Shown: in pieces, positions 32,771-37,363 of the stretch | Position numbering within the stretch: the stretch's first letter is position 1 | Layout of the letters: each line of letters begins with the position of its first letter | NCBI GenBank assembly: GCA_003220435.1 | Contig: QHSL01000007.1 | Span: 1-44,568 of the forward strand | Direction: 5' to 3' | Length of the DNA: 44,568 nt | DNA from: Candidatus Rokuibacteriota bacterium | Lineage (GTDB): Bacteria > Methylomirabilota > Methylomirabilia > Rokubacteriales > CSP1-6 | Position numbers and translations under genes: made by a program | Notes under the pieces: generated by a model | What the model was told of the DNA's origin: nothing | The model's database searches: none | Seen by the model: only the letters and a program-made list of their open reading frames with translations

Positions 32771-32981
32771 CGGGGGAGTCGAGAGGGGGGCGGAGCCCAG
32801 CGCCCCGCGTGTTCGCGGGGGAGTCGAGAGGGGGGCGGGGCCCAGCGCCCCGCGTGTTCGCGGGGGAGTCGAGAGGGGGGCGGGCCCCAGCGCCCCGCGT
32901 GTTCGCGGGGGAGTCGAGAGGGGGGCGGAGCCCCAGCGCCCCGCGTGTTCGCGGGGGAGTCGAGAGGGGGGCGGAGCCCCC
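32771..32981 (+). repeat. 45-bp tandem repeat array, four units plus a partial
   Basis: Units begin at 32771, 32816, 32861, 32906 and 32952, with one single-base insertion in the fourth. Each full unit can form CCCCGCG-TGTT-CGCGGGG (first at 32803-32820), and a second GGGGGC-GGA-GCCC(CC) hairpin whose G-side is preceded by GAGTCGAGA. The partial last unit keeps only the second hairpin. Units are near identical and have no spacer, so this is not a CRISPR. The array occupies the 5' leader of the aldolase gene. A lone copy of the second hairpin occurs at 10535-10559. Confidence 0.92.
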
Positions 32982-34222: not shown

Positions 34223-34855
34223 GTGGCCGGCCACGACGGAACGTTCGACGAGGCGCTCAGGGCGCGAGTCACGGTGAACCTGGCCGGGTTCGCCCGCCAA
34301 GCGATCGCCCCCGACGGCCGCCGTCCGGCGGCGGTGGCGGCGGTGCTGCTCCCCGACGACGAAGGGCGCGCGTGCTTCCTGCTCACCCGGCGCACCGCAA
34401 CCCTGCGGGCCCACGCCCGCCAGTGGGCGCTGCCCGGCGGCCGGATCGATGCCGGCGAGAGCTCCGAAGCGGCGGCGCTCCGCGAGCTGCAAGAGGAAGT
34501 CGGCCTGGCGCTGGACGCGACGGCGGTGCTGGGGCTGCTCGACGACTACGGCACGCGGTCGGGCTTCATCATCACGCCGGTCGTCGTGTGGGCCGGTGAG
34601 AGGGTCGAGCTGGCGCCGAACCCGGCCGAGGTAGCGCACGTCTACCGGGTGCCGCTGTCGGACCTCGACAAGCCCGACGTGCCGCGTCTGATCACGATCC
34701 CCGAGAGCGATCGCCCGGTGATCCAGGTGCCGCTGCTGTCGTCGCTCATCCACGCGCCGACCGCCGCGGTGCTCTACCAGATCCGCGAGGTCGTCGTCCA
34801 CGGCCGGCCGACGCGCGTGGCTCACTTCGAGCAGCCCACCTGGGCTTGGAAGTAG
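34223..34855 (+). CDS. NUDIX hydrolase, CoA-pyrophosphatase-like
   Basis: A 210-residue NUDIX protein with an intact Nudix box, GRIDAGESSEAAALRELQEE-VG (G-x5-E-x7-REL-x-EE-x-G). The 20-residue Nudix box is flanked by QWALPGG before it and by LDDYGTRSGFIITP after it, as in CoA/NADH-pyrophosphatase relatives (CoAse type). Start GTG 34223 has no strong ribosome site, so it could be read by coupling from the previous gene 14 bases upstream. Substrate is inferred from the flanking pattern only. Confidence 0.83.
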   Translation: MAGHDGTFDEALRARVTVNLAGFARQAIAPDGRRPAAVAAVLLPDDEGRACFLLTRRTATLRAHARQWALPGGRIDAGESSEAAALRELQEEVGLALDATAVLGLLDDYGTRSGFIITPVVVWAGERVELAPNPAEVAHVYRVPLSDLDKPDVPRLITIPESDRPVIQVPLLSSLIHAPTAAVLYQIREVVVHGRPTRVAHFEQPTWAWK

Positions 34856-34968: not shown

Positions 34969-35889
34969 GTGCGGAGCCCGCTACAAAACATGTTCACGAT
35001 CATCGACGATGGAGGCGCTAGCCAGGTGGACGAGCGTACCTGGACGGAGCTCGCGAAGCGAGCCGAGGTCGCCGGGCGCCCGGTGGCGATCGATGCAGCC
35101 GAGCGCGTCGCCTACCTCGGCGTGACCGCGGCCGATCGGGCCACGGCGCTCTCCTCGCTCGAGGCCCCGGACTTCACGCTGCCCGACCTCGAGGGGCGCC
35201 AGCACTCGCTCTCCCAGCACCGGGGACGCAAGGTGCTGCTGGTCGCGTACGCGTCGTGGTGAGGGTGCCGCCTCGACCTGCCGGTCTGGCAGGCGGTCCA
35301 CGAGGAGCTGCGAGGCCACGGCTTCACCGTGATCACCGTGGCGCTCGACCGGTCGGACGACGACGCGCGCCCGTGGATCGAGGCGGCCAAGCCCACGCAC
35401 CCGTCGCTGATCGACACGCGGCACGTGCTGGCCGACTTCTACAACATCGTGAACGTGCCGACGATTCTCTGGATCGACGAGGGGGGTCGGTTGGTCCGCC
35501 CGAACGACGTCGCCTTCGGCACCGACACCTTCAAGCACATCACCGGGATCGCGGCCGCGCGGCACCACGCGGCGCTCCGCGCCTGGGTCCGGGGCGAGGC
35601 GGCGGCGCTGCCGGAGGCGCGGGTGCGCGCGCTCCAGTCGTTGCCGACCGAGGCGGACCAGCAGGCGCGCGCCGAGTTCGGCCTGGGCGAGTGGCTCAGC
35701 GCCCACGGCCGGGGAGAGGCGGCCGCGCGCCACTTCGCGAGAGCCGGCGAGCTGGCGCCGCACGACTTCACGATCCGGCGCGGCACGATGCCCATGCGCG
35801 GGGTCGACCCCATGGGTCCGGAGTTCCGCACGATGCTGGGAGAGTGGGTCAAGGCAGGTAACCCTTACTATCGACCTTTACCGGAGTGA
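34969..35889 (+). CDS. Selenocysteine-containing redoxin (in-frame UGA at codon 98)
   Basis: A 306-residue thioredoxin-fold protein if the in-frame TGA at 35260-35262 is read as selenocysteine. Before it the frame has the redoxin strand APDFTLPDLEGR and KVLLVAYASW; after it GCRLDLPVW, then ALDRSDDDARPW, the cis-Pro segment NVPTILWIDEGG and a TPR-like C-terminus (about 230-290). The active site thus reads SW-U-GCR, with U98 and Cys100. GTG 34969 follows GGGAGG. Both halves share one frame, and a SECIS-like hairpin follows. The C-terminal end overlaps the SDR gene region. A nonsense mutation is the alternative. Peroxide or disulfide reduction is inferred. Confidence 0.85.
35263..35301 (+). promoter_or_regulatory. 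SECIS-like hairpin directly after the UGA
   Basis: From the base after TGA the RNA can form a lower stem CCGCC (35268-35272) with GGCGG (35292-35296), an internal loop TCGAC, an upper stem CCTGCC/CTGCC (35277-35282) with GGCAG(G) (35288-35292/3) and an apical loop GGTCT (35283-35287). The loop is 20 bases after the UGA. The E. coli fdhF SECIS has GGUCU at its apex 18 bases after its UGA. Confidence 0.8.
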
Positions 35890-35891
35890 CC

Positions 35892-36884
35892 ATGGGCATG
35901 CTCAGTGGAAAGAACGCGCTGGTGACGGGGGCGGGGCGGGGAATCGGCCGCGGGATCGCGATCGCGCTCGCCGCGGCAGGGGCGAAGGTCGTGGTCAACG
36001 ACCTCGGCGCCTCCCTGAGCGGTGAGGGCGTCGAGAACAAGCCCGCTCAAACGGTGGTCGACGAGATCGTCAAGGCCGGGGGCGCCGCGAAGCCGAACTA
36101 CGGCTCGGTGTCGGATTTCAATCAGGCGGCCGCGATGGTCCAGCAGGTCATCGACGCGTGGGGCCGGATCGACATCGTGGTGCACGTCGCCGGCATCCTG
36201 CGCGACCGGATGATCTTCAACATGACCGAGGACGAGTGGGACGCGGTGATGAACGTGCACCTCAAGGGCATGTTCAACGTGGTGCGAGCCGCGTCGGTCT
36301 CGATGCGCGAGCAGAAGGGCGGCCGCATCATCAGCATGTCGTCGGTGTCCGCGCTCGGCGCGCCGGGCCAGCCGAACTATGCCGCGGCGAAGGCCGGGAT
36401 CATCGGGCTCACCTGGTCGACCGCCAACGCGATGGCCAAGTACGGCGTGACCGTGAACGCGATCATGCCGAGCGGGGCCACCCGCATGATCGACTCCACG
36501 CCGCGCGGCCGGCAGGTGTTCGAGTCGACCGGCAAGTGGCCGAGCGAGCTGGCGGCCGGGACCGACCGCGACCCCGACAACGTCGCGCCGATCGTCGTCT
36601 ATCTCTCAAGCGACGCCGCCGCCAACGTGAATGGTCAGGTGTTCCACGCGCGGGGCTACGGCTACACACTGCTCGAGCAGCCCCACGCCGTGCGGCACAT
36701 CAAGGCCGGGCGCCGCTGGGATCCCGAGGAGCTGGTGAAGCTCTTCCCCGAGACGCTCGGCGGCAACCTCAAAGTTCCGCCCAGCATCGAGTTCGGGCAG
36801 AAGCTCGACGATCGTCCCGCCGACGAGTGGCGCGAACTCGGTGGCGGCCGGCGGTTCTGGAAGTCCCGGTACGAGGAGCCGTGA
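35892..36884 (+). CDS. Short-chain dehydrogenase/reductase (multifunctional-enzyme-like)
   Basis: A 330-residue classical SDR. The dinucleotide motif is TGAGRGIGRG, followed by NDLG at the end of strand 2, VHVAGIL (in place of NNAG), Ser in SSVSALG and the catalytic YAAAK. The C-terminal extension (last 80 residues, with GRRWDPEELV) is characteristic of the 17-beta-hydroxysteroid/3-hydroxyacyl-CoA dehydrogenase type of multifunctional enzymes, so a 3-hydroxyacyl-CoA substrate is plausible. Starts at GTG 35886 (overlapping the selenoprotein stop), ATG 35892 and ATG 35898 are all possible; ATG 35892 is best placed behind GGAG. Confidence 0.88.
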   Translation: MGMLSGKNALVTGAGRGIGRGIAIALAAAGAKVVVNDLGASLSGEGVENKPAQTVVDEIVKAGGAAKPNYGSVSDFNQAAAMVQQVIDAWGRIDIVVHVAGILRDRMIFNMTEDEWDAVMNVHLKGMFNVVRAASVSMREQKGGRIISMSSVSALGAPGQPNYAAAKAGIIGLTWSTANAMAKYGVTVNAIMPSGATRMIDSTPRGRQVFESTGKWPSELAAGTDRDPDNVAPIVVYLSSDAAANVNGQVFHARGYGYTLLEQPHAVRHIKAGRRWDPEELVKLFPETLGGNLKVPPSIEFGQKLDDRPADEWRELGGGRRFWKSRYEEP

Positions 36885-37363
36885 AAAACGTCCTCATGGT
36901 GTGCCACGCCAACACCGCCCGGAGCGTGATGGCCCAGCTGCTGCTGGAGCGTATGCTGGCGGAGCGTGGCGCCAACGGCAGCATCCGGGTGAGCTCGGGC
37001 GGGATCGCCAACTACGCGCGCGACGGCATGATCGCCTCGCTCGACGCGCGCCTGGCGCTTCGTGACGAGGGCATCCACCTCGGCGAGGCCGATTTCGCCT
37101 CGACGGATCTGAGGCGGCACCGCCACCTCCTCGCCCAGGCGGACCTGATCCTGACGATGACGGCGCTGCAGAAGCAGATGCTCGGCGCCTACGCCGAGAC
37201 GGGCGACCGGTTGGTCTTCACGCTGCGGGAGTTCAGCGGCGAGGACGGCGACATCGAGGATCCGGCCACGCAGGGCGAGGAGGTGTTCCGCGCCTGCCGC
37301 GACGAGATCAAGCGCTGTCTGGAAAAGTCCATGGGCCGCCTGCTGACCATCCTCTCCGGATGA
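36881..37363 (+). CDS. Low-molecular-weight phosphatase family protein
   Basis: A 160-residue protein with the LMW-PTP P-loop Cys8-HANTA-Arg14-Ser near the N-terminus (C-x5-R-S) and the general-acid motif Asp127-Pro128 (EDPATQG). Both catalytic elements are intact, so it should be a tyrosine phosphatase or a related arsenate reductase; the Cys pair needed for thioredoxin-coupled arsenate reduction is not evident, and other cysteines (Cys139, Cys146 region) are distal. GTG start overlaps the SDR stop (GTGA). Confidence 0.85.
   Translation: MKNVLMVCHANTARSVMAQLLLERMLAERGANGSIRVSSGGIANYARDGMIASLDARLALRDEGIHLGEADFASTDLRRHRHLLAQADLILTMTALQKQMLGAYAETGDRLVFTLREFSGEDGDIEDPATQGEEVFRACRDEIKRCLEKSMGRLLTILSG

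Follow-up and report, generated by a model that had tools for sequence, protein, structure and literature searches.

Does a TGA codon that interrupts an otherwise open redoxin frame end a protein, or does it specify selenocysteine (Sec), and, if the latter, what kind of redox protein would result? We followed this question in a 44,568-nucleotide stretch of DNA from a Candidatus Rokuibacteriota bacterium, referred to here as the window, which is contig C11 of genome G000 (95.5% complete). A sequence-only reading of the window had described the gene as a new-looking selenoprotein with an active-site Sec and a SECIS hairpin.

A redoxin frame with one internal TGA

The features of the locus are collected in Table 1. 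The frame had been placed at 34969-35889; its one internal TGA and its end at 35889 stand, but its start is probably different, the ATG at 34990 being more likely than the GTG at 34969 to judge from the alignment, because eight other members of the genus align from residue 6-8 and the relative L048 has MFTVIDDG. The Sec is residue 98 when counted from 34969 (the numbering used here) and residue 91 from the likely ATG. As had been stated, the TGA lies in frame from 34969 and is followed by 208 sense codons before the terminal TGA is reached. The mechanical ORF list divides this frame into 34969-35262 and 35329-35889, which is the split that had been foreseen for ordinary gene callers. The Pro of the NVPT motif, which we take to be the cis-Pro position of the thioredoxin-type fold, is seen intact in the translation and is kept in 20 of 21 aligned proteins (Ser in L073). 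Open-frame length alone is weak evidence in this GC-rich window: comparable open flanks, with at least 97 codons before and at least 200 after, are found at 22 of the 1029 TGAs in its six frames.

Table 1. Positions of the redoxin gene, its recoding signals and its conserved neighbours in the window
Feature	Position	Strand	Basis
Predicted selenoprotein gene, ResA/TlpA-like redoxin, 299 residues	34990-35889	+	Frame, NF041054, PF00578, AlphaFold2 model
In-frame TGA, predicted to be read as selenocysteine, motif W-U-G-C (35257-35268)	35260-35262	+	Conserved TGA; Cys in relatives
Putative bacterial SECIS hairpin: CCTGCC (35277-35282), GGTCT loop (35283-35287), GGCAGG (35288-35293)	35277-35293	+	Comparison; single-sequence folds equivocal
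Pro codon (P164) of NVPT motif	35458-35460	+	Translation
Terminal TGA of redoxin gene	35887-35889	+	Frame; next gene starts at 35886 or 35892
NUDIX hydrolase, conserved upstream neighbour	34223-34855	+	PF00293
Short-chain dehydrogenase, conserved downstream neighbour	35892-36884	+	PF13561/PF00106
Low molecular weight phosphatase, conserved downstream neighbour	36884-37363	+	PF01451

The closest named contigs for the redoxin belong to Rokubacterial MAGs, with protein identity up to 89%. Its neighbourhood was counted over 29 related loci with flanks of at most 1.5 kb: 22 have a NUDIX hydrolase upstream on the same strand, 17 have a short-chain dehydrogenase downstream (at a distance of 20 bases or less in 15), and 21 have a low molecular weight phosphatase downstream. 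Farther upstream in the window, a tandem array of a 45-bp unit (32771-32980, 4.6 copies, 97% match) directly follows a PD-(D/E)XK nuclease ORF. The array lies upstream of, and is partly in frame with, a gene that is presumably aldolase-like.

Reading of the internal TGA

We searched 95 genomes of the phylum, with matches listed strongest first. Among the matches listed, 56 reach E ≤ 3.2e-31, and 53 of these cover residue 98, the other three being fragments that stop short of it. Exactly one TGA is present in each of the 53 covering matches listed, which come from 46 genomes at 43-100% identity, and U-G-C is read at the site in every one; the recurrence of the codon in 46 genomes, among the matches listed, also answers the earlier worry that reads might carry a different base here. 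When 50 close loci, a set that includes the same contigs from two collections, were read codon by codon, 48 gave U-G-C and two gave C-G-C, namely L073, from a Deltaproteobacteria MAG, and L075, from Aquihabitans sp. G128. The Actinomycetota sample supplied another two Cys forms, L126 and L133, making four more distant Cys relatives in all. The relatives, whose residue at position 98 the sequence-only reading had proposed to inspect, thus carry either Sec (53 of 53 covering strong phylum matches listed) or Cys (four distant ones), and the in-frame UGA aligns with the Cys of homologues, as in bacterial selenoproteins.

The hairpin 3' of the TGA was compared in an alignment, A1, of 58 distinct Sec genes obtained from 80 Sec rows by removing 22 identical ones (45 sequences from Rokubacteria and 13 from the Actinomycetota sample). 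Standard pairs fill 99.7% of its stem cells, and three of the six pairs show double changes. None of 500 shuffles of A1 reaches any of five covariation measures. Kinship inflates covariation counts, and slid registers of A1, which keep kinship, give at most 62.6% pairing and zero to two double-changed pairs versus three for the true register. RNAalifold recovers the same stem independently. The five double-changed cells all lie in three of the 58 sequences (L115, L127, and L130, all actinobacterial), and the stem hardly varies within Rokubacteria. Eleven Sec rows stand outside A1 (L079, L094-L096, L113, L114, L121, L134, and L137-L139, with L138 and L139 representing one place); ten retain six pairs when G-U is counted, and L095 retains five. 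Only five stem pairs are likewise found in L131. In L130, the stem reads GGTCCC-GGTCT-GGGACC, with three pairs flipped at once, and the protein changes with it from ELPVWQ to EVPVWD; with three stem pairs and the encoded residues changed together, the alignment suggests RNA-level selection bending the protein. No selB was found at E 1e-40 in the genome of L130 (G132, Actinomycetota sample).

Codon choice in the stem was examined in 49 distinct Sec genes. Each of the three codons whose third bases lie in the stem, D103 GAC, L104 CTG, and Q108 CAG, is the same in 49 of 49, and P105, whose third base lies in the loop, is divided between CCG (27) and CCC (22). Eight other conserved Leu columns use one codon in at most 77%. 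Leu104 carries most of this argument, since the other conserved Asp columns are mostly GAC anyway (62-94%) and Gln offers no second conserved column for comparison. These comparisons argue that the SECIS hairpin is under selection. Such a hairpin is not by itself diagnostic of a Sec gene, because two of the four Cys relatives, L073 and L075 (identical with L128), keep the full six-pair stem, the other two having five and three pairs.

The geometry of the window's own hairpin agrees with the earlier proposal of a SECIS element directly after the TGA, a proposal now joined by conservation and covariation in homologues. Its loop begins 20 nt after the TGA, and the 17-nt stem-loop by itself folds at -10.0 kcal/mol, inside the limits that section 5 of PMC13188914 gives for bacterial SECIS elements (loop of 3-9 nt, stem of 4-16 bp, G at loop position 1 or 2, spacing of 16-37 nt, and MFE ≤ -7.5). 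Among homologues the loop varies, with an invariant G at its second position (column 25 of A1) and a variable first letter. The GGTCT loop of the window is, as we assume, identical to that of E. coli fdhF. The presence of a hairpin is by itself weak evidence in a GC-rich window, and hairpins of SECIS geometry with at least six Watson-Crick pairs follow 48 of the window's 1033 TGAs on the two strands. Single-sequence folding is equivocal: many shuffles fold as well as the three window stretches taken around the site (z -0.4 to -1.1), and the six-pair stem appears in the minimum-energy fold of one of six window stretches of differing length and of 23 of 33 distinct 60-nt homologue stretches. Rfam at gathering scores returned no match in the window, SECIS included.

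The genes selA, selB, selC, and selD, which the sequence-only reading had asked for in the same genome, were all found in G000. Contig C138 carries selB (351 bits, over the cut-off), selA (569 bits), and a tRNA-Sec with anticodon TCA (69.8 bits), and contig C100 carries selD (341 bits), which is likewise interrupted by one in-frame TGA (L107). Co-occurrence with selB within the phylum is uninformative because selB is nearly universal there (84 of 95 genomes); among the matches listed, 42 of the 46 genomes that have a covering match also have selB over the cut-off, versus 42 of the 49 others, leaving four of the 46 Sec-bearing Rokubacterial genomes without it. In a sample of 396 Actinomycetota genomes drawn from a larger group, 21 match an NF041054-type protein at 1e-35, 12 of them over the cut-off. 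Here 13 of 16 genomes that carry a Sec copy have selB over the cut-off, versus none of three that carry a Cys copy (Fisher p 0.021, or 0.007 with G096 added, both uncorrected for kinship). G096 is a Cys-bearing MAG that lacks selB and covers only 1.6 Mb of sequence; two genomes with an unreadable active site, G219 and G148, both with selB over the cut-off, were left out of the count. The selB genes missing from three Sec-bearing Actinomycetota and four Rokubacterial genomes were perhaps on absent contigs.

Homology and hairpin covariation settle the reading of the TGA, whereas frame, hairpin, and folding are each weak alone. With the Sec machinery added, they bear out the proposed selenoprotein, with a UGA-encoded Sec in the redoxin active site and a SECIS element under selection, and Sec incorporation at this UGA, taken alone, appears extremely likely. 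That the TGA codes for a different amino acid (Trp, for instance) or is read through independently of a SECIS is very improbable. The frame alone does not give the inserted residue, and the equivocal single-sequence folds would leave room for such a reading, but Cys stands at the site in the four relatives that lack the TGA, the redoxin gene itself terminates with TGA in 35 of 50 loci (TAG in 10, TAA in five), the genome has the Sec machinery, and the stem shows covariation; this alternative was rejected. Still less credible, and rejected likewise, is a pseudogene or a sequencing or assembly error, with the TGA a real stop or a wrong base in a broken gene, for although a lone TGA in a long frame is expected occasionally in GC-rich DNA (the 22 of 1029 window TGAs above), the same TGA recurs in 53 of 53 covering matches listed from 46 genomes at identities down to 43%, with conserved protein on both sides and a covarying hairpin 3' of it. 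For Sec incorporation, we propose that the SECIS hairpin recruits SelB and tRNA-Sec and that the UGA is decoded as Sec.

Other redox proteins of G000 also have in-frame TGAs: L018 (C112) reads WATWUPTCREELP, L024 (C57) ESTUPYCARELP, and L100 (C69) YRGYWUPFC. On these readings, G000 probably encodes additional selenoproteins; PMC13188914 cites a Methylomirabilota MAG for which 63 are predicted.

Fold and proposed chemistry of the Sec-Gly-Cys centre

An AlphaFold2 model of the protein (pLDDT 93.4) was compared with solved chains by VIA-align. The top chain was a putative DsbE, 3gl3 (Z 19.8, 140 residues, rmsd 2.0), and ResA 1st9 matched at Z 18.8 (136 residues, rmsd 2.2); these two matches lie within model residues 53-202, and the solved ResA chains extend over residues 55-204 only. 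For the C-terminal residues from about 208 on, a part that the chains compared barely test, no known fold is assigned. The protein is thus predicted to have the thioredoxin fold with cis-Pro of ResA/TlpA proteins (Z 18-20 and NVPT, the cis state itself being assigned by position only). In place of their CxxC centre, it has U-G-C, one residue shorter. The sequence-only reading had remarked on a U-x-C rather than a CxxC site, and W-U-G-C is indeed read here, U-G-C being normal for the selenoprotein family of this redoxin.

Two alignments with other solved members of the thioredoxin family set Sec98 against the first Cys of CxxC, which in ResA-like proteins is the nucleophile, and place Cys100 opposite the second across a gap of one residue. 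We suggest that Sec98 takes the place of this first Cys and Cys100 that of the second, resolving Cys, with W-C-x-x-C becoming W-U-G-C by one missing residue between the redox positions. The redoxin would then cycle between a selenol/thiol form and a Sec-Gly-Cys selenenylsulfide and would reduce or isomerise disulfides (or reduce a peroxide). For a CGC motif, a disulfide potential of -167 mV, near the -180 mV of PDI's CGHC, is cited in PMC4316792. No biochemical work on a ResA-fold protein with a Sec-Gly-Cys centre was found among open-licence PubMed Central papers.

Very probably, then, the protein is a cytosolic thiol-disulfide oxidoreductase of the ResA/TlpA fold with a Sec-Gly-Cys centre, an estimate that overlaps with that for a peroxidase. 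The cytosolic location is the most likely one, as the N-terminus, judged by eye, is not signal-like, and the redox chemistry, like any partner, is inferred. A selenoprotein that acts as a Prx-like peroxidase instead is a possible but unlikely account, and one that shares ground with the preferred one. It would fit the best Pfam match, which is AhpC-TSA (PF00578, 59.5 bits against a gathering score of 26), as well as the peroxiredoxin Q structures that match the model at Z about 15 and the name Prx-like that PMC2398784 gives to the family. However, ResA, TlpA, and StoA rank ahead of PrxQ among the NCBIfam models, the highest VIA-align chains are DsbE-like and ResA, and W-U-G-C replaces WCxxC, whereas the 2005 Sargasso paper gives Sec peroxiredoxins as TXXU (PMC1088965).

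Place among catalogued redoxins

The claim that the selenoprotein looked new did not hold, as the family is already catalogued as NCBIfam NF041054 and as the "Prx-like (UGC-containing)" entry of the 2008 ocean survey (PMC2398784). The window protein reads as a shortened member of this known kind. NF041054, "ResA-like WAxxUGC motif-containing protein", is its best model match at 217.3 bits, below the curated cut-off of 300 bits. All 21 aligned proteins, the window protein included, match NF041054 at E 1e-20 or better. By these scores, they are taken to be homologous to NF041054 and of the same kind, with the window protein outside the curated equivalog limit. The window protein reads YASWUGC rather than the WAxxUGC motif; some Rokubacterial orthologues, like the second paralogue, have WASWUGC. 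The string "WAxxUGC" gave no match in open-licence PubMed Central literature.

The resemblance to NF041054 comprises the x-A-x-W-U-G-C site, the redoxin core, and a weaker second stretch at the C-terminus (profile 234-320). The difference lies at the N-terminus, where the match of the window protein starts at profile position 48 and the C-x4-C[VI]P segment is absent from the window's clade. L048 is 43 residues longer than the window protein between MFT and AYLG and has this segment, as do 41 of 65 rows in all (L042, L077, L093, and L115 among them); the segment might be a second redox centre. It is missing throughout the window's 14-row clade (support 98/94). On the 65-row tree, the Cys-pair label needs seven changes. 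Among the "no pair" labels, those of L119, L124, L097, and L090 may be artefacts of contig ends, N runs, or frameshifts, and L124, with a branch of 4.29, is probably misread. Since seven changes are needed and several of these labels are doubtful, the tree supports only loss of the Cys pair on the window's clade. A second, more distant type with WASWUGCR[FRL]DLP groups with long actinobacterial forms (support 98/100), and G037, G061, and G091 carry both redoxin types. We raise, tentatively and as a less likely reading, that the window's Rokubacterial clade is a separate subfamily that lost the Cys pair. In the long form, electrons would pass between this pair and the Sec-Gly-Cys centre, in one direction or the other; the short form would use the selenenylsulfide alone with a different partner, probably one tied to the NUDIX, dehydrogenase, and phosphatase neighbours.

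These findings provide a well-supported selenoprotein gene from an uncultured soil phylum. They also indicate that a gene cut in two by a stop-to-stop ORF list can be recognised by initial inspection of the raw sequence. In the literature, Table 2 of PMC2398784 gives the "Prx-like (UGC-containing)" family 46 Sec and 855 Cys members in the Global Ocean Sampling survey, the 2022 and 2026 reviews relist it (PMC9312934, PMC13188914), and the 2005 Sargasso table counts one UXC among Prx-like sequences (PMC1088965). The window protein has the AhpC-TSA/TlpA domain with a Sec-Gly-Cys site that defines this family; the "UGC-containing TlpA disulfide reductase family protein" of PMC13188914 and the Prx-like UGC entry of PMC2398784 share with it the pfam00578/cd02966 domain and the UGC site. 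The UGC members of the ocean survey came from marine and non-marine water samples, and it is by domain and motif that they are likened to the window protein. ResA of Bacillus (1st9 and relatives) has the same fold but a CxxC centre and no Sec, and the solved ResA chains leave the C-terminal helices of the window protein's model unmatched.
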